From the NCBI GenBank assembly GCA_023957335.1, contig JAMLHC010000001.1, positions 640,017 through 704,016 on the forward strand: 64,000 nt of DNA, in the 5' to 3' direction. Source of the DNA: Bacteroidota bacterium (GTDB lineage: Bacteria > Bacteroidota > Bacteroidia > NS11-12g > UBA955). The position numbers and the translations under genes were made by a program. Every line of letters begins with the position of its first letter. The stretch's first letter is position 1. The notes under the pieces were generated by a model that was given only the letters and a program-made list of their open reading frames with translations, was not told the DNA's origin and searched no databases. Positions 49,075 through 59,140 of the stretch are shown piece after piece.

Positions 49075-50517
49075 TTAATACCCGTAGAAATTATAATACT
49101 TGCGTTGTCCATCAGCAGAGATACCTTCAATCTGTATTCTGCCATTGGCTTGTGACAACCATTGAATTAGATCATTAGGCTCTCTGCACTCTTTGCCATT
49201 AAATTTCACAAAGATAAAATCATCAGACAAACCCATTCTGCGTACAAATCCAGAACGAACTTCGCTCACTTTGACACCATAATCAATACCATAACGTTGC
49301 ATTTCTAATTTCGTAACCTTAGAAAAGTCTGCTCCCAATTCATCCGACCGAACTGATGTTTTCTTAATCAAATCGGTATTCCCTTGTTTATTGATAAGTG
49401 TAAGCACGGCATCCTTAACTTTTCCGTCCCTTTTATAACTGATTTTAATTTTATCTCCCGGTCTTTGGTATGATAAATATTCATCATAAGAAGACTTGGC
49501 ATCCACAATTCTGTCCTGAATTCCAACAATCAAATCCCCTGCCCTGATGCCTGCTTTGAAGGCAGGACCATCTTCCAAAACATTAGCAACATATACCCCA
49601 TCATCGAATGAGATTTTCAATTTTTGTTGAGTTTCATAATCAATATCAGCCACATCCATACCCGTAAAACCTCTTTGAACCTCTCCAAACTCAATGAGGT
49701 CTTTGACTGTTTTGATAACAATATTGACAGGAATAGCAAAACCATATCCGCTGTATGAACCGGTTTGCGACATAATTGCAGTATTAATACCAATCAACTC
49801 ACCTTTGGTATTGACTAATGCTCCACCGGAATTTCCCGGGTTAATAGCAGCATCCGTCTGAATAAAAGATTCTATCGGGAATTGGTTGTGTACAATATTG
49901 ATATTTCTTCCTTTAGCACTCACAATACCTGCTGTAACAGTCGATGTCAAGTTGAAGGGATTACCAACAGCCAGCACCCATTCTCCGATTTGTAGATTAT
50001 CTGAATTACCTGTTTTAATTGCCGGCAGATTGTCCATTTCAATCTTAATAAGCGCTAAATCAGTAGAAGGGTCGGAGCCTATTAATTTGGCGGTATATAC
50101 TTTCTTTTTGTTATTCAGAACAACTTCTATTTTAACCGCATCTTTGACCACATGTAGGTTTGTAGCAATATAACCGTCTTTGGACATAATAACACCTGAG
50201 CCGGTACTTGCAACCTGTCCTATACTTCCAAACGGATCATAATCAAAAAACCAGAAAGGGCTTGCAGTTCTTACTTCTGCTGTTGTTTTAATAAACACAA
50301 CAGAAGGTGTAGTAACGGCAGACGCTTGCACAAAATCTGTCACATCCGAAGGCTTTGATGCACTTTGAAACGACACTTCGGATGATTTGAACTTATTTTC
50401 AGCAGAGCTTAACTCATCTGAAAAATTATAATAAGTCTTGTTTGTAATGCTGAACAACCATGCACCGCCAAAGCCAAATACAGCAGCGCCTAAGAGCAAA
50501 ATAAGTTTCTGTTTCAT
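49075..50517 (-). CDS. HtrA/Do-family serine protease
   Basis: A 480-residue periplasmic protease with an N-terminal signal or anchor (about 4-23), a trypsin-like domain (about 60-270) and two PDZ domains (about 285-370 and 395-475). The triad is His122 in TNLHVV, Asp153 in TDLALIKI and Ser230 in NPGNSGGAL. Such proteins remove misfolded envelope proteins. The second PDZ is shorter than usual. A -7 box precedes the gene. The DUF1573 gene lies upstream on the same strand, 78 bases away. Confidence 0.94.
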   Translation of the reverse strand: MKQKLILLLGAAVFGFGGAWLFSITNKTYYNFSDELSSAENKFKSSEVSFQSASKPSDVTDFVQASAVTTPSVVFIKTTAEVRTASPFWFFDYDPFGSIGQVASTGSGVIMSKDGYIATNLHVVKDAVKIEVVLNNKKKVYTAKLIGSDPSTDLALIKIEMDNLPAIKTGNSDNLQIGEWVLAVGNPFNLTSTVTAGIVSAKGRNINIVHNQFPIESFIQTDAAINPGNSGGALVNTKGELIGINTAIMSQTGSYSGYGFAIPVNIVIKTVKDLIEFGEVQRGFTGMDVADIDYETQQKLKISFDDGVYVANVLEDGPAFKAGIRAGDLIVGIQDRIVDAKSSYDEYLSYQRPGDKIKISYKRDGKVKDAVLTLINKQGNTDLIKKTSVRSDELGADFSKVTKLEMQRYGIDYGVKVSEVRSGFVRRMGLSDDFIFVKFNGKECREPNDLIQWLSQANGRIQIEGISADGQRKYYNFYGY

Positions 50518-50525
50518 GAGTTAGG

Positions 50526-50533
50526 CAAAATTA
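50526..50533 (-). promoter_or_regulatory. -7 box for the HtrA-like gene
   Basis: Minus-strand TAATTTTG fits TAnnTTTG, 8 bases before the ATG at 50517, giving a short leader. Confidence 0.45.
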
Positions 50534-50595
50534 ATAAATCTCAAAAAATCAATTGAAACTTTTGTTAAAATGCACGGAAATATTCACCAAATCAA

Positions 50596-51696
50596 TTACT
50601 TCACAATTTCCGTTTCACCATATATCATCAATTCAGAGTTTTTGGGGTCGTTTGAGTATATGGTAATTCCGCGATATAATTTACCTTCCCTTTGCCCAAT
50701 ACTGTCAAAGGTCAATGTGAGTGTAACGGTTTCTCCCGGTGCAATTATTTCTTTTTCAATACTTCCTTTGAAACAATAACAAGCGTAGTGAATTTTTCTT
50801 ATTTCTAAGTTTGTTTTTCCTTTATTGGTGATGATTATGGTCTTGGATGCTACACCTCCGATTTTTATTTTATCAAACTTAACAGAAGTTGTTTCTGCTT
50901 TGATTATCGGAGCGACTGCCAATTCTTTTTTGGAAAGTTTGGAGAAATCTTGTGTTTTTTTGCCCTTTACGTAAACAATTTTCTGACTCATTTGATAATC
51001 ATTTGAAAGCAAAATCAGTCTGAAATTGAACTCACCCCAATATTCTGTCATATCTGCTTTGTTGACTTTGAGTGTCATCACAGCAGTATCACCGGAATTA
51101 AGATATTGCGGATAATCAACCTGGAATATTTTGGGCAAATCCTGAAATCCCAAGAACTGCACGCGGTTATAGCCGTCATTAGAAATCTTGATTTTGGCAA
51201 CATATTCTTTGTCCTGTTTTATTTCACCAAAGTCAAATGTGGTTGAGTTCATGGAAGTATTTCCATACAAAATAGAGTATTTTCCCTTGACGGGTTTAGT
51301 AACAGAAATAACATCGCCTTTGATAGTAAGATGAACAGTAAAACCGGGATTATCGTTGAAAGTAACAGTAAGTGCTTTATCAAAATGACCGGGTCTTCCG
51401 CTTGGGTCAAATCTGGCAGTTAAAAAACCTTTCTCTCCGGGCTTAATTGAATCTTTATTGTAAACCGGTTCGGTACAACCGCAACTCACATTGACTTGAC
51501 TGATGTATATGGGTTTATCCCATGTATTTGTAAAATAAAATTTAGTACTTATGACACCCCCTGATTCAAAAACTTCTCCAAAATTGTGTTCATATTCTTC
51601 AAATGAGAATGGCGATTTGACAACTTGTGCCGATACAACTTGACTAACCAAGAGAAAACTCAATAATGACAAGGTGCGGATAATTGCTGATTTCAT
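50596..51696 (-). CDS. DUF1573-domain secreted protein
   Basis: A 366-residue exported protein (signal peptide about 1-23). It has three Ig-like modules of the DUF1573/ASPM-SPD-2-Hydin kind: residues of about 30-130 with YEHNFGEVFESGG and the signature VSCGCTEPVY, about 140-245, and about 265-362 with TSVKFDKIKIGGVASKTI and ACYCFKGSIEKEIIAPGE. The CGC and CYC positions may bind metal or form disulfides. These proteins are common in Bacteroidota and have unknown function. Located between the signalling operon and the HtrA-like gene on the same strand. Confidence 0.88.
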   Translation of the reverse strand: MKSAIIRTLSLLSFLLVSQVVSAQVVKSPFSFEEYEHNFGEVFESGGVISTKFYFTNTWDKPIYISQVNVSCGCTEPVYNKDSIKPGEKGFLTARFDPSGRPGHFDKALTVTFNDNPGFTVHLTIKGDVISVTKPVKGKYSILYGNTSMNSTTFDFGEIKQDKEYVAKIKISNDGYNRVQFLGFQDLPKIFQVDYPQYLNSGDTAVMTLKVNKADMTEYWGEFNFRLILLSNDYQMSQKIVYVKGKKTQDFSKLSKKELAVAPIIKAETTSVKFDKIKIGGVASKTIIITNKGKTNLEIRKIHYACYCFKGSIEKEIIAPGETVTLTLTFDSIGQREGKLYRGITIYSNDPKNSELMIYGETEIVK

Positions 51697-51811
51697 ATTT
51701 GCAAAGATGATATGGTTTTTGATTTAGTTGTCTTTACAAACAAAATTCTTACCAAAAATATGATGAAGTTAAAATAATGAGGGATAGAGTGCTATCTGAA
51801 ATAAATTCCGG

Positions 51812-52399
51812 TCAATTCACGGTTGCAAGTAATTCTTGAATTGTGGCGATATTGGCAGGAGTCAACAATGTTTTGCCTGATTTAAGTTTAAGCAGAGTTT
51901 TGCCACCTGCCTCTTTTTCCAATTCAGAGATTTCTGCAATGGGTATGAGCTCCCAATGATTGTGCACAAATACGGGGAATTGCTGTATCGGTTTTGCAAA
52001 CAGAAAACGAGCTAACTTGTACTGATTACGGGAAAAACCGGTATTCAAACGGGATGTAGAATTTGTAATTTCATGCACCAACTGGTCAACATCAATAGGT
52101 TTCATTAGCGTAGGAAATCCACAATAATTTAACACCCTGATTGAGTTTTCGTCAAATGCCGTGATAAAGATAATCTCAAAATCAAAGTCTCCAATTTCGT
52201 TCAGCAACTGATAAGAATCTCCTTCTCTCAGACTGATATCCAAAAATGCGAGATTAGGTTTAAAATCAATTATGGCTTTTTTTGCTCCTGCAATATCCTG
52301 ACAGGTTTCTATGGCTTCAATATTCTCATAATAGAGTTCTATCAAGGCTTTGAGCACTTCTCTGCTCTTTTTTTCATCATCAACTATTAGTATGCGCAT
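51812..52399 (-). CDS. Response regulator with a shortened LytTR-like output domain
   Basis: A 195-residue protein. The receiver domain (about 1-118) has the acidic pair DD at 7-8, phospho-acceptor Asp54 in LAFLDISL, Thr in FITAFD and Lys in LMKPID. The remaining 75 residues (FPVFVHNHWELIPIAEI, ISELEKEAGGKTLLKL, LKSGKTLLTPANIATI) look like only the first part of a LytTR DNA-binding domain, which normally has about 100 residues. It may bind DNA weakly, act through protein contacts, or have lost DNA binding. It is the last gene of a four-gene operon, 3 bases after the propeller kinase gene. Confidence 0.82.
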   Translation of the reverse strand: MRILIVDDEKKSREVLKALIELYYENIEAIETCQDIAGAKKAIIDFKPNLAFLDISLREGDSYQLLNEIGDFDFEIIFITAFDENSIRVLNYCGFPTLMKPIDVDQLVHEITNSTSRLNTGFSRNQYKLARFLFAKPIQQFPVFVHNHWELIPIAEISELEKEAGGKTLLKLKSGKTLLTPANIATIQELLATVN

Positions 52400-52402
52400 G
52401 GG

Positions 52403-55400
52403 TTAATATTCCTTCATAAATGGTATAAAGACTTGGACTAAAGTTCCGCTTGCATTTTCTTGGTTGTCAAACAAGTCTATGACATTAATGGTTAGTTTCT
52501 TGTACATATCTACATTGAGCAACTCTAATCTTTCTTTGATAGCTTTCATAGCAGTAGATTCATGTTTTTTTGTTCGGTTTGCATTGAGTTCTTTTGCTTT
52601 TGCACGTCCAATGCCATTGTCTTCAATTTCGCAATAAAAATGCGAAATCTCCTTCTTAACCCTGAGTGTAACTTTCTTTTCACCCTCTTTGTTCAGCAAT
52701 CCATGTACAATTGAATTTTCGATAAAGGGCTGCAAAATCATTGAGGGTATCAGCATAGATTTGGGATTGATATCTTCAGCAATTTCTACCTTGTATTGAA
52801 TTTCGCCTTCTATTCTGATATTTTCGAGATCAATATAGAGTTGCAACGATTCTAACTCTTCTGCAAGTGGAATAAAGTTGAGCCTTGAGTTTTGCAGAAT
52901 TTTCCTCATCAAAGAGGAGAATTTAGTGAGATACGAATATGCAAGCTTGGGATTTTTGTTCAGAATATAATATTGAATGCTATTGATAGAATTGAAAATA
53001 AAGTGAGGGTTCATTTGAGAGCGCAAGGCTTTGAGTTCAATTTCGGTAACTTTTGTTTTAAATTCTTTGCGGATAATATTTACCCTATACACATATCCTC
53101 CGTAAAGGGCTAATAAAAGTGCTATCGCAATTAAGAGTATAAACCACCATGTGAGCCAAAATGGAGATAAGATGGTAAATGATTTAGTGGCAATATTGTT
53201 TGACCAAACACCGTCCTGACTTCTTGCACGAACTTTGAAGATATATTGTCCCGGACGCAAATCGGGATATTGAACAAATCTGCGATTACCTGCATTCACC
53301 CAATCTTGATCAATACCTTCGAGCATATAGCTGTAGGTAACCTTATCGGGATTCAGCAGTTCTATGCCAACAAATTCAAAGCTTATAAAGTTTTGTTTAT
53401 GAGTTAACTGAAGATTATCTACCCACAAATTAGTTAACTGTCTTTCAAACACACTCATCTTGGTTAAATGAACAATGGGTGCACCACTATTTACAAGTAT
53501 TTTTGAAGGATCAAATATGTTTAAACCTTCAATTCCACCAAACAAGAACAGTCCACTGCTTGAAGCGAGATAAGAAGCCTCATTAAACTCCAGACTTTGT
53601 ATTTGCTCCGGTCTGTCAAAGCTACTCACACTTCCGGTTTGAGGGTTAATTTTTGCTATTCCCTTGTTGGAACTCACCCACCAATTGCCCTCTTTATCAA
53701 TCAAAAGTCCATAAACAGCATCATTGGGTAGTCCATTAACTTCAGAAAATGTCGAAATTCTATTTTGTTTAATATCAAGAATATTAATTCCTCCACCAAA
53801 AGTTCCCAGTAGAAGTGTGTCTTTGCCCAATTTTTTTATAGACATGACATTATTATTCATATTTGAAAAACCCTTTGTAGCAGTAGAGTAACAACTCACA
53901 AACTCTCTCTTTTCAATATCAAATTCAAACAAACCCTGTCCGAACGAAGCAACCCAAACTAGGTTTGCAGACCTACCGGGTTTAATATCATATATAACCT
54001 GTGGTGGAAAGTCATTGGTTGTACACTCAAAACCGGAGTGTATTTCTTTAGTTTTTGGATTCCAAACCAACAAACCATCAGTAGTACCAATCAATAACAA
54101 ACCTCTGTTGTCTTCATATATGGAACGAATGGGGTTATGCGTCATAACTCTACCATTTTCGTCTGTGGCAGGAGTAAATTTACGTTCTTTAGGAAAAAAT
54201 TCAAACAACCCTTGTTCACCGGTTCCAACCCAATAACGCTCTTTAGAATCTTGAAATATCGCTCTAATACTATTGGAAGTTAAGCCATGTGAATTGTTCC
54301 GGTTAAAGGAAGTAAAGTTTTCGGAACTCGGGTCAAACAAGTTCAAACCACCTTCCAATGTTCCCAACCAGATTCGGTGTTGGCGGTCTTCATAAATAGG
54401 ATAAACTTGCTTACTATGTGTACCTAATTTATCTGAGTTTGGACGATAAAATTTGAACTGTTGATTCAAGGGTAAATAAACTGAAATTCCACTAATAGTC
54501 CCTAACCATATATTACCTTCAGAATCCTCAAAAATATCATATATTGTGTTGTTTATCAGTGAAAAATGATCCGACAAGTCCCTTTTTAAAATCCAAGAAC
54601 TACCCTCTTTGGTTATATTGACTAAGCCGTCAAAGGTTGTACCTATCCATAAATTACCTTTAGAATCAGGATACAATACGTTGATATGTGAAAATTCTTC
54701 ATTGTCATTTTCCCCGAGTTTAATTTCTGTTTCTTTATTAGAATCTACTTTGAAAAGACCTGAATTTCCTGTTCCGGCATATAGACTGCCCTTAAACAGT
54801 GCTAAACAACTGACCGAATGTTGTTCTAAATTTCTATTAGGTAAAAAATGTGATTCTTTTGAATTATAATAGGCTATTCCTTGGTCAGTTCCGATTGCAA
54901 ACAGATGCTCTCCTAACTTTAACACCGCTTGTGTATAGTCTGAGGGCAGTTGAGAATTTTTGGAAGTAATACGTTCATATTCACCTGATGATATATTAAG
55001 TTTTATAAGTCCACCACCCATAGTATAAGCAATTACATTTTGAGAGTCCACAAGACAGAATCCTCTGATTTCATAAGCATCTGATTGCTGTGTCCAAACC
55101 TTATAATGGTTAAACTTATTATATTTATTGTAATATCGGTCAATATATCCTGAATGGGTACCTATGAGCAAACTCCCGTCAGGCAAGGGAACCAGAGCGG
55201 TAATATAGTTATCGGAAGGCGAGTTATCTTTTCCATATTCATGTGGAATAGACTTAAATTCATAGCCATCATATCTATTAAGTTTGTCCGGAGTTGCAAT
55301 CCATAAATAGCCGTCTTGGGTTTGTGTAATCTGCAAGATGGACGACATAGACAGCCCCTGTTCCATGGAAAAATTCCGAAACTTGATTGCAGGATATTTT

Positions 55401-55471
55401 ATCTCTGACGTCTGAGCATGAATAAATTGAGGACAAAAGAGCAATACTGTATAAAGTAGAACACTTCTCAT
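52403..55471 (-). CDS. Two-component regulator-propeller sensor histidine kinase (LytS/His_kinase type)
   Basis: A 1022-residue membrane kinase. Residues of about 1-19 form a signal peptide; about 25-665 hold two seven-blade regulator propellers (repeated DGYLWIATPDKLNRYDG, GNLWIGTTFDGL, GNIWLGTISGISVY, HRIWLGTLEGGLNLFDP patterns); about 690-765 is a Y_Y_Y domain; a single membrane helix is at about 775-795; the His_kinase domain follows with NPHFIFNS (phospho-acceptor His823) and a GHKL ATPase with N-box Asn919 in PFIENS and DNGIG at 951-955. It should sense an extracellular signal, probably a glycan or metabolite as in other such sensors, and pass phosphate to the LytTR regulators. The kinase has no fused receiver, unlike classical hybrid systems of this class. 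Confidence 0.93.
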   Translation of the reverse strand: MRSVLLYTVLLFCPQFIHAQTSEIKYPAIKFRNFSMEQGLSMSSILQITQTQDGYLWIATPDKLNRYDGYEFKSIPHEYGKDNSPSDNYITALVPLPDGSLLIGTHSGYIDRYYNKYNKFNHYKVWTQQSDAYEIRGFCLVDSQNVIAYTMGGGLIKLNISSGEYERITSKNSQLPSDYTQAVLKLGEHLFAIGTDQGIAYYNSKESHFLPNRNLEQHSVSCLALFKGSLYAGTGNSGLFKVDSNKETEIKLGENDNEEFSHINVLYPDSKGNLWIGTTFDGLVNITKEGSSWILKRDLSDHFSLINNTIYDIFEDSEGNIWLGTISGISVYLPLNQQFKFYRPNSDKLGTHSKQVYPIYEDRQHRIWLGTLEGGLNLFDPSSENFTSFNRNNSHGLTSNSIRAIFQDSKERYWVGTGEQGLFEFFPKERKFTPATDENGRVMTHNPIRSIYEDNRGLLLIGTTDGLLVWNPKTKEIHSGFECTTNDFPPQVIYDIKPGRSANLVWVASFGQGLFEFDIEKREFVSCYSTATKGFSNMNNNVMSIKKLGKDTLLLGTFGGGINILDIKQNRISTFSEVNGLPNDAVYGLLIDKEGNWWVSSNKGIAKINPQTGSVSSFDRPEQIQSLEFNEASYLASSSGLFLFGGIEGLNIFDPSKILVNSGAPIVHLTKMSVFERQLTNLWVDNLQLTHKQNFISFEFVGIELLNPDKVTYSYMLEGIDQDWVNAGNRRFVQYPDLRPGQYIFKVRARSQDGVWSNNIATKSFTILSPFWLTWWFILLIAIALLLALYGGYVYRVNIIRKEFKTKVTEIELKALRSQMNPHFIFNSINSIQYYILNKNPKLAYSYLTKFSSLMRKILQNSRLNFIPLAEELESLQLYIDLENIRIEGEIQYKVEIAEDINPKSMLIPSMILQPFIENSIVHGLLNKEGEKKVTLRVKKEISHFYCEIEDNGIGRAKAKELNANRTKKHESTAMKAIKERLELLNVDMYKKLTINVIDLFDNQENASGTLVQVFIPFMKEY

Positions 55472-55477
55472 ATTTTA

Positions 55478-56227
55478 TTATACTTTGGATAAATTGGACA
55501 GAAACCCCTCTTTTTTTCTTTTGGATACATCCACGGAGTCACCATTACTCATAATCACATGACCACCATCTCCTCGCACATATTTTTTCATCTGGTTGAG
55601 ATTAATCAAGTAGGATTTATGAACCCGATAAAAGCCCATGTCCCTCAATAATTCTTCAAACTCCTTGAGATTTTTTGACACTGTAATTCTGTCCGAATCC
55701 TTCATATAGAAATATGTATAAGCTCCATCGCCTTTGCAATAGATGATATCTTTTACCTTAACAAATAACAATCCATCAGAACTTGTTAAAGCAACTTGTC
55801 TGTCTTGTGAGCCATTCCACTTTTGCAAGAACACATCTGCATACCGTACTGAGCTTTCTTTTCTGCGTTTTTCTAATACTTTGTTCACAGCGACCTCGAG
55901 TTCTTCCACATTAAAGGGTTTGAGTAAGTAGTCAACGGCTTCTGTTTTGAATGCCTTTAGCGCATATTCCTCATGTCCTGAAATAAAAATGACATCAAAT
56001 TCCTCATGCTTAAGTTCATCAATCAACTCAAAACCTGATTTCTCAGGAAATTCCACATCTAAAAATACCAAATCCGGCTGCAATTCTTTGATTAACTTGG
56101 TACCTTCTTCAATATTGGTTGCAAAAGCTTCTACCTTTACATCCGGGCAATAGTCTGCAAGCAATTTGCTCAACACTTCGCGTACATTTTGTTCATCATC
56201 AATAATAATAGTCTTTAGCATAAGCAT
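55478..56227 (-). CDS. LytTR-family response regulator
   Basis: A 249-residue regulator (247 if the second ATG at 56221 is used). Receiver domain about 1-125: acidic pair at 10-11, phospho-acceptor Asp57 in LVFLDVEF, FISGHEEYALKAF, and Lys in YLLKPFN. LytTR DNA-binding domain about 145-245: LFVKVKDIIYCKGDGAYTYF, RVHKSYLINLNQMKKYV, and GDSVDVSKRKKEGFL. It binds DNA as a dimer in known members. It lies 5 bases after the degenerate kinase gene and 6 bases before the propeller kinase gene, so all are co-transcribed. Confidence 0.94.
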   Translation of the reverse strand: MLMLKTIIIDDEQNVREVLSKLLADYCPDVKVEAFATNIEEGTKLIKELQPDLVFLDVEFPEKSGFELIDELKHEEFDVIFISGHEEYALKAFKTEAVDYLLKPFNVEELEVAVNKVLEKRRKESSVRYADVFLQKWNGSQDRQVALTSSDGLLFVKVKDIIYCKGDGAYTYFYMKDSDRITVSKNLKEFEELLRDMGFYRVHKSYLINLNQMKKYVRGDGGHVIMSNGDSVDVSKRKKEGFLSNLSKV

Positions 56228-56232
56228 TCATT

Positions 56233-56823
56233 TTAATGGTTGATTAATAAGGTATATTGGGTTTGTTTCTGTGTAATATTTTCTGTGTATTCAGATGCAC
56301 ATAGTTTCATTTTTTCTTTTAACAATCGGAATCTTCCTTGTTGTTCATCATTTCTTTCTTGTATGTCAAATGGCGGTAGCATCTGATTTATCAATACATT
56401 AAGTAATAGTTTGTTATTGCTATATTCAAAACTGATTGTCAATTTAACAGGTTTGAGGTTATTTTTGAGAGAAGCAGAAACAAGCAATTCCACAAATGGA
56501 ATGCAGAGTAGCACGTGCAATACTTGATAGGGTGTATTGTTGTCAATACTGAAATCAAATAACTCTCCAAATCTGATTTTTTCCATTTGCAAATACTCGT
56601 CTAACAATTCCACCTCTTCTTTCACAGTCCACTCGGATAAGTCAACAAGTGAAATCACCTTTCGCAAAAATTTTGCATAAGCTGACAATCCATTGATTGC
56701 ATCGCGTTTTTGGTCAAATGTAATACGGTTTTGAATCGCAGTCAGATAGTTGAACACCGCATGGGAACACACAATTGCATTTGCCAACTTGTGATTAATA
56801 ATAATATGATGTTCATTATTCAT
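56233..56823 (-). CDS. Degenerate LytS-type histidine kinase domain protein (predicted pseudokinase)
   Basis: A 196-residue soluble protein without signal peptide or membrane helix. Compared with the His_kinase domain of the neighbouring propeller kinase, CSHAVFNYLTAIQNRI lines up with NPHFIFNSINSIQYYI, keeping the phospho-acceptor His (His21), and YLQMEKIRF matches YIDLENIRI. In the ATPase half the N-box is altered (CIPFVELLVSASL in place of MILQPFIENSIVHG) and lacks the Asn, and the DNG motif is absent (LINQMLPPF at the equivalent place). So dimerisation/phosphotransfer may remain but ATP binding is probably lost. It is the first gene of the signalling operon. I infer a phosphotransfer or scaffold protein; loss of function is an alternative. 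Confidence 0.75.
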   Translation of the reverse strand: MNNEHHIIINHKLANAIVCSHAVFNYLTAIQNRITFDQKRDAINGLSAYAKFLRKVISLVDLSEWTVKEEVELLDEYLQMEKIRFGELFDFSIDNNTPYQVLHVLLCIPFVELLVSASLKNNLKPVKLTISFEYSNNKLLLNVLINQMLPPFDIQERNDEQQGRFRLLKEKMKLCASEYTENITQKQTQYTLLINH

Positions 56824-56828
56824 CTATT

Positions 56829-56836
56829 CAAAGATA
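56829..56836 (-). promoter_or_regulatory. -7 box for the signalling operon
   Basis: Minus-strand TATCTTTG fits TAnnTTTG, 5 bases before the ATG at 56823; the leader would be very short. No clear -33 TTTG at the right distance. Confidence 0.45.
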
Positions 56837-56968
56837 AAAAATAATAACTCACAAATAAAATCGAATCATAACAAACGGCATAAATTACTGACGAATGCAG
56901 GTTCTTAATTTACAAGCGGAACCGACAAGGCAATTCATAAAAGCATCATAAAAAGTAAAAGTAAAGTT

Positions 56969-56976
56969 TACATTTG
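56969..56976 (+). promoter_or_regulatory. -7 box for the small lipoprotein gene
   Basis: TACATTTG fits TAnnTTTG, 17 bases before the ATG at 56994. Confidence 0.55.
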
Positions 56977-56993
56977 CACTCAAACAAATCACA

Positions 56994-57251
56994 ATGAAAC
57001 GTACTCTTTTTATCCTAAGCTTAGTATCTACTTCTTTTTTCATCGCATGCAGCAATAATACCAATACAGTTGATGATGGAAAAATTCAGGAAAACGAACA
57101 AATTATTCAGGAATCCGAAGACGACCTTCTTAATCAAATAGAAGCAGACGAAGCGGATTCAACTTCAACAGACTCATCTGCCATCAAAAATGACGCGTCA
57201 CAAACTAATAACCAAGATGTGATTGATTTCAACATTACAACCAAGAAGTAA
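56994..57251 (+). CDS. Small acidic lipoprotein
   Basis: An 85-residue lipoprotein: signal peptide ending FFIACS (Cys at about 19), then an acidic Glu/Asp/Ser/Thr-rich tail (EDDLLNQIEADEADST, about 40-60) that is probably disordered. I do not recognise a family. It stands 26 bases before the EreA-like gene on the same strand and is probably co-transcribed with it. The composition fits an outer-membrane anchored protein; a role is unknown. Confidence 0.65.
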   Translation: MKRTLFILSLVSTSFFIACSNNTNTVDDGKIQENEQIIQESEDDLLNQIEADEADSTSTDSSAIKNDASQTNNQDVIDFNITTKK

Positions 57252-57277
57252 TAAATCTGAGATACACTCCAAAATTT

Positions 57278-59140
57278 ATGATGAAGTTGCTTTTACCTCT
57301 GCTGTTTGTGTTCGGTTTATTTTTATCTGCAACTGCACAAAAAACACAGGGTTATGAAATATCCTTTGATGCCAATAAGAATGCAATCGGATTTGAAGTG
57401 CTTGACAGCAGTTTTAGGAACAAACAAGTTTTCTTCACGGGAGAAGACCATCGCTTCATAGAAAACAACAATGAAATCTCCTTGGCTTTTACCAAGTATT
57501 TACATCAGAAATTTGGAGTAAGACACCTACTGCTAGAACTTGGCTATACATGGGGCAAAATCCTGAATACTTATATCCAAACCGGTGACAGTGCTATTTT
57601 TGAGGTAATCAAAAAATCCTCTTATATATCTCATTATGATTATTTTAACCAATTATACTTTTATAATAAATCACTACCCGACAGTGAAAAAATCATCATT
57701 ACCGGCATAGATGTAACCCGTGATTATACAGTATGCATGCACTATCTCAACTATCTGATTCCCCGCAAATCAACTCCTTCAGATGATATTATTGTAAGCG
57801 TAGAATCCATCAAAGCACTTTCAGAGTATCTGTATGATCAATCCCGTTCCGGTGACGGCTATAATAATTCAGTTTCATATTCATACTCCGCGAGTATTGA
57901 TTCTATTATCGCCAACTTTCATCGATACGAAGACAGTTATAAAACTTTTCTTGACACTCAATATACCGAGTTTGCAAAAATTATCAAATGTCTTGAAGAC
58001 AATGAGGTTTGGCGCAACTATGACAACAATAACATGATTCAGAAATTCATTTTCAGAGAACAATTCATGTTAAAAGAATTTGAGAAGCTATACAAGCAGT
58101 ATCCTAATGACAAATTTTACGGACAATTCGGACGTTGTCATATCGGTCAAACCTCAGACGGAAACGAGTGTGAATGGTATAATTTCAGACCCATTGCAAC
58201 TCGCATCAGTGAGCTAAACAACAACGAGTTAAAAGGCAAGATGATGACTTTAGCAATCATCTATACAGACGGACTTGCATACAAGGACAAACTCTCTGAC
58301 CAAATCAATTCATTGATTGCGCAAACACCCAAAAACAGTATTTATATTTATCCTTACGAAAACAATGTAAGCCAAACAGACTCTGCGGATGTTGCCCCAA
58401 GCAAATACAACTATGTCATCATTGACAATAAATCCAAACTCCCGGTTTCTTATACAGATTCCGGACCTGTCTATACATGGAAAAATCTTGACAAGTACAA
58501 AACTCCTTACACCCTGATTGGGTATGGCAGAAACTTTGCAATGTTGCCTGAAGTTCAAAAAAAACCGCTCAACAATTTGAACCAAGCACTGGGCGCCAAT
58601 CCACTATTTACGGACTTCAAGACCCCTATCATCAGCCAAACAATTTATATTGATTTTATTAATTTTAGCAAAAAATCGGGCAGAGGCTGGGGCATAGATT
58701 TTAGCAATGACCTTGCCCAAACCAGAGACATTGACAGTGTAACTACGCTTAGGTTCGGAGGTATGAGCGCCAACTTTCGCATGCACTATTTGAGGAAATT
58801 ATTTTCTGTAAGCGAATTCGGACTGTGGTTGAACAGCAGTTTGCGCTTGGGTTATGACAGCAAATACCTGCAAATCCAATATCCCGACAAGAGTCGACCT
58901 GCGCTCTTGGGTTTTGACAATATTGCAACCGCCAAATTCAAGACAGCCTCTTTTAATGTGATTCCCACGCTTGGGCTTGCGGCCTTTGTTTTTAAGTCAC
59001 TTATGATTGGGGCAGACTGTGGCTATAATTGGCAAACGGGCAAAACCTCATGGAAGCAAGGCGGAAACAGGGTGCAGGGACCCTCCCAAAAATGGAGTAG
59101 TGCCTTTTATTCATTAAAGATGGCTTTGATTTTTAACTAA
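57278..59140 (+). CDS. Secreted erythromycin esterase-like protein with C-terminal beta domain
   Basis: A 620-residue protein with a signal peptide (about 1-21). Residues of about 45-330 show the erythromycin-esterase-like (EreA/ChaN) fold marks: FFTGEDHRFIEN (Glu56, His58), RHLLLELGYTWG (Glu87) and GRCHIGQT with His288, which match the metal/active-site residues of EreA in order. Residues of about 450-620 are beta-rich with alternating aromatic strands (RGWGIDFSND, FGLWLNSSLRLGY, SLMIGADCGYNW) and resemble an outer-membrane barrel or porin-like tail. The combination is unusual. A macrolide substrate is not implied; the function is unknown. It precedes pssA by 5 bases. Confidence 0.65.
   Translation: MMKLLLPLLFVFGLFLSATAQKTQGYEISFDANKNAIGFEVLDSSFRNKQVFFTGEDHRFIENNNEISLAFTKYLHQKFGVRHLLLELGYTWGKILNTYIQTGDSAIFEVIKKSSYISHYDYFNQLYFYNKSLPDSEKIIITGIDVTRDYTVCMHYLNYLIPRKSTPSDDIIVSVESIKALSEYLYDQSRSGDGYNNSVSYSYSASIDSIIANFHRYEDSYKTFLDTQYTEFAKIIKCLEDNEVWRNYDNNNMIQKFIFREQFMLKEFEKLYKQYPNDKFYGQFGRCHIGQTSDGNECEWYNFRPIATRISELNNNELKGKMMTLAIIYTDGLAYKDKLSDQINSLIAQTPKNSIYIYPYENNVSQTDSADVAPSKYNYVIIDNKSKLPVSYTDSGPVYTWKNLDKYKTPYTLIGYGRNFAMLPEVQKKPLNNLNQALGANPLFTDFKTPIISQTIYIDFINFSKKSGRGWGIDFSNDLAQTRDIDSVTTLRFGGMSANFRMHYLRKLFSVSEFGLWLNSSLRLGYDSKYLQIQYPDKSRPALLGFDNIATAKFKTASFNVIPTLGLAAFVFKSLMIGADCGYNWQTGKTSWKQGGNRVQGPSQKWSSAFYSLKMALIFN

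Follow-up and report, generated by a model that had tools for sequence, protein, structure and literature searches.

We found that a 196-residue protein designated pHK, encoded in the window (the whole 64,000-nucleotide stretch of Bacteroidota DNA analysed here), keeps the phospho-His of a histidine kinase and has lost the motifs for ATP binding, and that its gene leads a run of four on the minus strand, in the order pHK, RR1, HK and RR2, with intergenic gaps of 5, 6 and 3 bp. The operon consists of an intact kinase and an intact regulator together with a kinase/regulator pair reduced to phosphate-carrying residues. We propose, with a probability of roughly 0.6, that pHK derives from a LytS-class (PF06580) histidine kinase and serves as a histidine phosphotransferase in an HK -> RR2 -> pHK -> RR1 relay, the chemistry and direction of which we infer. 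The genes and key codons are these:

56233..56823, minus strand: pHK, soluble LytS-class protein of 196 aa, phospho-His kept, ATPase motifs lost
56761..56763, minus strand: His21 codon of pHK, predicted phospho-acceptor, with invariant Ser20 and Asn25 (H+4) on either side
56488..56490, minus strand: Glu112 codon of pHK, only N-box residue shared by every aligned orthologue (17/17), the adjoining Asn being Leu113
55478..56227, minus strand: RR1, receiver and intact LytTR (Pfam Response_reg, LytTR), proposed output regulator
56057..56059, minus strand: Asp57 codon of RR1, predicted phospho-acceptor, invariant in 13/13
52403..55471, minus strand: HK, 1022 aa, two-component propeller, Y_Y_Y, His_kinase and HATPase_c (Pfam), intact kinase
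53003..53005, minus strand: His823 codon of HK, predicted autophosphorylation site, in invariant PHFIFN
51812..52399, minus strand: RR2, receiver intact (Response_reg E 5.6e-13), LytTR about half length, proposed Spo0F-like carrier
52238..52240, minus strand: Asp54 codon of RR2, predicted phospho-acceptor, invariant in 13/13

The pHK gene and its operon

An earlier note, made from the sequence alone, had reported the open reading frame at 56233-56823 without stating its strand. It does encode 196 residues, reading on the minus strand from a start codon at 56823..56821; the plus strand over the same interval has no open frame and many stops. The chance of 196 open codons at the local GC content is ~2e-6, and orthologues in other genera establish pHK as a real gene. 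The motifs that had been described, CSHAVFN (His21) and YLQMEKIRF in pHK and NPHFIFN, IENS and DNGIG in the neighbouring propeller kinase, are all present, pHK indeed begins the four-gene run, and the reported absence of the N-box Asn and of DNG was confirmed: the pHK N-box is FVELLV, with Leu113 in place of Asn, and there is no DxGxG. pHK thus lacks both features expected of an active histidine kinase (the N-box Asn and the HATPase_c DxGxG), and the Pro before the phospho-His (PHFxFN), which is usual in PF06580 without being a family criterion, is Ser. The profile search that the note had suggested gave PF06580 His_kinase as the sole Pfam match at E <= 1 (residues 20-87, E 7.8e-10, 39.3 bits relative to a gathering cut-off of 25.2), with no match to HATPase_c, SPOB or the ChpT family, and annotation of such genes as sensor histidine kinases on the strength of PF06580 is wrong. 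The claim that pHK has no membrane helix is probably right; hydropathy does peak at 2.17 over residues 101-119, but this stretch covers the N-box helix (107-120) of a folded domain in a confident AlphaFold2 (AF2) model. Further places similar to pHK in its own genome were three kinases only, with weak E-values, the neighbouring HK among them. Divergent from pHK, on the plus strand at 57278-59140, is a gene for a 620-aa protein with no Pfam match at E <= 1; its counterpart occupies the same place in G026 (L060:6903-8771).

RR1 is the most conserved of the four genes, and across 14 cassette kinases PHFIFN, the N-box EN and DNGIG of HK are invariant. The receiver of RR2 is also intact, with D10, D11, D57 and K103 (RR1 numbering) kept in 13/13. 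Its LytTR domain is eroded: the signature GDGAY, R-x-H-x-S and VSKR[RK]KE is found in all RR1s and is missing from RR2s, the domain is cut to about half in the window's genus, and RR2 of the window has no LytTR match in Pfam. Pfam still recognized a LytTR remnant in 9/13 RR2s, where the DNA-contact signature is missing too, and an AF2 model of RR2 (pLDDT 83) folded the shortened stretch at moderate to good confidence. Judged by these motifs, RR2 mirrors pHK, with the phospho-Asp site kept and the DNA-binding signature gone. This state of the last gene, its phospho-Asp kept and DNA binding lost, had escaped the earlier note, and it makes the lone pseudokinase half of a plausible relay. Over 50000-58000 an Rfam search gave no match, and promoter-like sites were no more frequent than in shuffled sequence.

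Distribution, conservation and fold of pHK

Searches of the window's family and order, extended to the neighbourhoods around the matches, identified pHK orthologues in 18 genomes belonging to two families of the same order as the window (G000, G003, G021, G026, G031, G032, G040, G071, G073-G076, G093-G096, G098 and G478), and 15/16 orthologues matched PF06580 at E <= 0.1. RR2 accompanies every pHK (18/18 genomes) and RR1 adjoins pHK wherever the contig allows, such that the expected partner pair, a receiver without an output domain and an output regulator, is present by gene order and sequence; in G073, HK and RR2 lie on a separate contig (L127) that carries only the end of RR1. We had considered whether pHK belongs to a wider Bacteroidia family and rejected this: when 396 genomes from across the class were searched by profile, no pHK turned up outside the window's order. 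True pHKs stood at E <= 4e-59; from there the matches fell to 8e-35 and weaker, where nearly every row was a full-length kinase. In genus g16, pHK and RR1 are separated by a conserved protein of 244 aa that has a hydrophobic stretch at its N-terminus (L047:6107-6841, L048:3528-4262, L049:3517-4251, L050:6769-7503, L051:3568-4302, L132:2146-2880), which G072 retains though its pHK is gone. In f2 loci, pHK or RR1 is preceded by one or two proteins of ~190-250 aa that recur there and are apparently secreted or anchored (L120:143-709, L133:6406-7912 and L052:1450-2887 are examples); the window has none.

Residue counts came from an alignment of 17 pHKs and 22 cassette kinases. Ser-His-x3-Asn is kept in all 18 pHKs (the 17 aligned and that of G032), which settled the earlier question of whether His21 is conserved among homologues; the His, the Asn at H+4 and the Gln at H+10 are each present in 17/17, and the H-1 residue is Ser in 17/17 pHKs versus Pro in 22/22 cassette kinases. 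Outside the phospho-His helix, Tyr77, Glu81, Arg84 and Glu112 are invariant. The ATPase-like half has neither the DNGIG Asp (0/17) nor either of the two DNGIG glycines (0/17), and its ATP lid is shortened. While the N-box Glu is kept in 17/17, the N-box Asn survives in 6/17 (the G098/G478/g20 lineage), so the N-box loss, which the note had proposed to check in homologues, is shared by 11/17 for this Asn, and loss of the DNGIG Asp by 17/17.

Evolutionary rates divide the protein in the same place. The slowest four sites are Ser20, Gln31, Asn25 and His21, the mean site rate is 0.78 for residues 1-87 versus 1.26 for residues 88-196, and conservation peaks at Ser-His-x3-Asn, against a mean column identity of 40% for the protein. 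Between L055 and L056, dN was 0.26 in the ATPase-like half versus 0.04 in the phospho-His half (0.065 versus 0.026 between L048 and L049), and dN/dS of the phospho-His half is well below 1 in close pairs, to which this measure is limited because dS is saturated in distant ones. A dead ATPase half that changes faster, next to a spared His, is what one would predict for a protein in which the phospho-His helix has stayed functional and the ATPase has not; under plain decay the His would have gone too. The note had likewise argued that retention of the His beside a lost ATPase is not what simple decay would give, and the invariance of His21 and the fast evolution of the ATPase-like half agree with it. 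Among the g16 species (L048, L049, L050), dS was 0.1-0.2 for pHK, several-fold below the 0.6-1.6 of HK, which suggests local recombination or transfer of the operon's pHK end.

An AF2 model of the pHK single chain, built from a 16-sequence alignment (pLDDT 93.1, pTM 0.90), confidently predicts a DHp plus HATPase-like fold, the outcome that the note's structural check had called for. The best solved matches to the model include the GanS kinase domain (6swk, Z 13.5) and ChpT (Z 11.9-12.2; 4qpk at 12.2, 4qpj with receiver at 12.1, also 4fpp and 4fmt); active kinases of similar Z stand among them, so the modelled fold fits a relay, yet by itself does not choose between kinase-like proteins. Spo0B is absent from the 50 fold matches listed, which excludes nothing. 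Profile-profile comparison aligned pHK with the core of the neighbouring kinase over 169 columns, and a sequence search of the PDB returned 6swj only (E 0.51). With a conserved DHp-helix His, a lost ATP site and, from the model, a DHp plus HATPase-like fold, pHK is a candidate member of the class of kinase-derived histidine phosphotransferases.

Specificity residues and the history of the operon

Also among the fold matches of pHK were the HK853-RR468 rewiring structures 4jau and 4jav. The specificity positions V13, L14, I17 and N21 of RR468, as named by 4jav, correspond to positions 14, 15, 18 and 22 of RR1 in a mapping onto RR1 and RR2 that we made via the conserved DD. The RR2 code at these positions is K-S-V-L/I in 21/21, with or without pHK. 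RR1 has the code K-S-[NV]-L in 9/10 genomes without pHK (G070, G097, G092, G077, G079, G080, G081, G084 and G089) and in 0/17 of the pHK-bearing genomes for which its sequence was read, where the codes are NVVL, NTVL, NSAM, NSVL, ASAL, AGSL, ASGL, KSGM and HGGL. The exception is G072, in which the RR1 code has drifted, pHK is cleanly gone from its place and the cassette is split between contigs. G032 provided an accidental test: it had seemed to be a pHK-less genome with its genus's drifted RR1 code, a status we rejected when its DNA showed a pHK at L124:179-793, overlapped by an antisense frame and not among the profile matches listed. When the 112 receiver columns are ordered by how much more RR1 varies than RR2, three of the four specificity positions come 3rd, 5th and 8th, and the rank sum of the specificity positions is reached by four random columns in 0.07% of draws (uncorrected for kinship); the loop after the phospho-Asp likewise ranks high. 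On the kinase side, the HK DHp positions H+8 (Ser) and H+11 (Tyr) are fixed in 22/22, while H+11 and H+12 of pHK differ, lineage-specifically, from the kinase's fixed Y and [YF]; the g16 pHKs have a Lys at H+8 that would face a fixed Lys of RR2, which is not obviously favourable for a relay. Our reading of these residues is that HK probably still speaks to RR2, and that RR1 no longer matches HK and appears to follow pHK. Because there are only about three changes on the tree, the correlation between RR1 drift and pHK lacks significance.

These three changes, counted on the HK tree, explain the presence of pHK, most simply as an ancestral pHK that G072, G097 and the g15/g17/g19 clade each lost. 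We rejected the possibility that pHK is a recent duplicate of the neighbouring HK, as pHKs and cassette kinases form separate groups in the tree (with the caveat of long branches), and those same long branches make a single origin of pHK (SH-aLRT 91) provisional. RR2 changed once, inside the g15/g17/g19 clade: it was lost only in the g17/g19 clade, also without pHK, which was left with a plain RR1-HK pair, so HK can manage with RR1 alone. Since RR2 persists without pHK in G070, G072 and G097, it must serve some purpose in the absence of pHK. That pHK went before RR2 fits a relay being dismantled; independent-pairs tests of the loss order and of the correlation had two or three independent contrasts only, and so no power.

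The proposed relay and its relation to known systems

In the relay we propose, HK would autophosphorylate at His823 and hand the phosphoryl group on to RR2, a receiver without DNA binding, at Asp54; RR2~P would pass it to His21 of pHK, which cannot use ATP, and pHK, presumably as a dimer, would pass it to Asp57 of RR1, a LytTR transcription regulator acting on putative target genes. All four steps of such a phosphorelay would be encoded in one operon built from LytS/LytTR parts and would work like KinA-Spo0F-Spo0B-Spo0A or Pak-SdrG-PhyT-PhyR. We count against it the drifted RR1 of G072 without pHK, the three genomes with RR2 and no pHK, and the clade with HK and RR1 only.

Some of the same evidence could be accommodated if pHK ran in reverse, draining RR1~P to RR2 as a sink, or acted as a plain RR1 phosphatase via Asn25 while HK phosphorylated RR1 directly. 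Asn at H+4 is the phosphatase position in HisKA kinases, and its invariance in pHKs is compatible with this, as is an RR2 that has lost DNA binding and that occurs without pHK in three genomes. Several clostridial phosphotransfer proteins have also proved to be phosphatases (PMC11210211). If HK phosphorylated RR1 directly, however, one would not expect RR1 in pHK-bearing genomes to have departed from the code by which RR2 stays matched to HK, and a simple phosphatase needs less than an invariant His; we consider such a role unlikely. The conserved DHp helices of the model, together with invariant residues beyond the phospho-His helix (Tyr77, Glu81, Arg84, Glu112), would also suit a non-catalytic partner that heterodimerizes with HK or sequesters RR1 (cf. 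PhyT/PhyR), its His being kept for structure. DivL is an imperfect parallel here, as its His is replaced, and a scaffold need not keep Ser-His-x3-Asn as its best-conserved stretch. DivL does illustrate that a pseudokinase can act as a regulator (PMC4211667), and PhyT couples sequestration of PhyR with transfer (PMC5898713), but a purely non-catalytic pHK seems to us quite improbable. pHK may have a mixed role, as PhyT does in transferring phosphate while also restraining its output regulator. The fast evolution of pHK, its dead ATPase half and its about three separate losses in the order could be signs of a functionless, decaying duplicate of a LytS kinase, yet its frame, length and place are intact in 18 genomes of two families, its active-site residues are invariant, the phospho-His half is under constraint in close pairs and it is not a recent copy of HK, making decay a very remote prospect. 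Of the roles that the earlier note had offered (phosphotransfer hub, kinase inhibitor or scaffold), the evidence thus favours phosphotransfer, and the other two less so.

The note's further suggestion of a new mechanism was too strong, because kinase-derived phosphotransferases are already known in the Spo0B, ChpT and PhyT lines (PMC5898713); what appears new is the LytS/LytTR origin. Like pHK, Spo0B of B. subtilis has ~190 aa, derives from a kinase, keeps a His and the Asn at H+4, has lost its ATPase and links an output-less receiver to a DNA-binding regulator, as proposed for pHK. Its phospho-His motif is HDWMN; pHK differs from it in its PF06580 kinase class, in having all partners in one operon and in coming from Bacteroidota. 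ChpT, which in Caulobacter and relatives serves the CckA hybrid kinase, shares the DHp plus dead HATPase-like fold with pHK, whereas pHK has no match to its sequence family and would be served by a stand-alone first receiver. In Sphingomonas melonis, PhyT is a degenerate kinase that moves phosphate from the single-domain SdrG to the output regulator PhyR, and its gene shares a locus with that of its output regulator, as proposed for pHK; unlike pHK it is alphaproteobacterial and has a predicted membrane anchor, a periplasmic sensor and an HRxxN motif (PMC5898713). LytS-class kinases paired with LytTR regulators (GanS, 6swk; the neighbouring HK) share the PF06580 domain and overall fold, but pHK has no ATP-binding motifs, Ser for Pro before the His, no sensor and no membrane anchor.

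We found no LytS-class phosphotransferase or LytTR phosphorelay in the literature searched, mostly journals open without subscription, although the LytS/LytTR class is very common. We give even odds to the reading that a complete phosphorelay encoded in one operon arose independently within the LytS/LytTR class, from duplicates of a kinase and of a regulator that lost ATP use and DNA binding, respectively, and kept only the phosphate-carrying residue. If so, Bacteroidota would have their own equivalent of the sporulation relay, dismantled to a plain two-component system in g17/g19. A real relay would be a compact four-gene system whose relatives without pHK, or without pHK and RR2, offer a direct test of the change between two-component system and relay, and of how specificity residues follow.

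Other short LytS-like proteins were observed in the class. At L130:5200-6024, G158, from another family, encodes a LytS-like protein of 274 aa that has a membrane helix at its N-terminus, the motif NSHFVFN and an N-box in which Asn is replaced (VERS), and that lacks DxGxG. It neighbours a LytTR-type regulator; it is apparently an independent ATPase-dead LytS protein and hints that dead LytS kinases arose more than once. Two short LytS-class proteins of another family (L125:2375-3043 and L126:1640-2404), directly upstream of a receiver-type regulator, have DRHFIFN (Pro to Arg) and keep DxGxG, and these are possible stand-alone soluble kinases.
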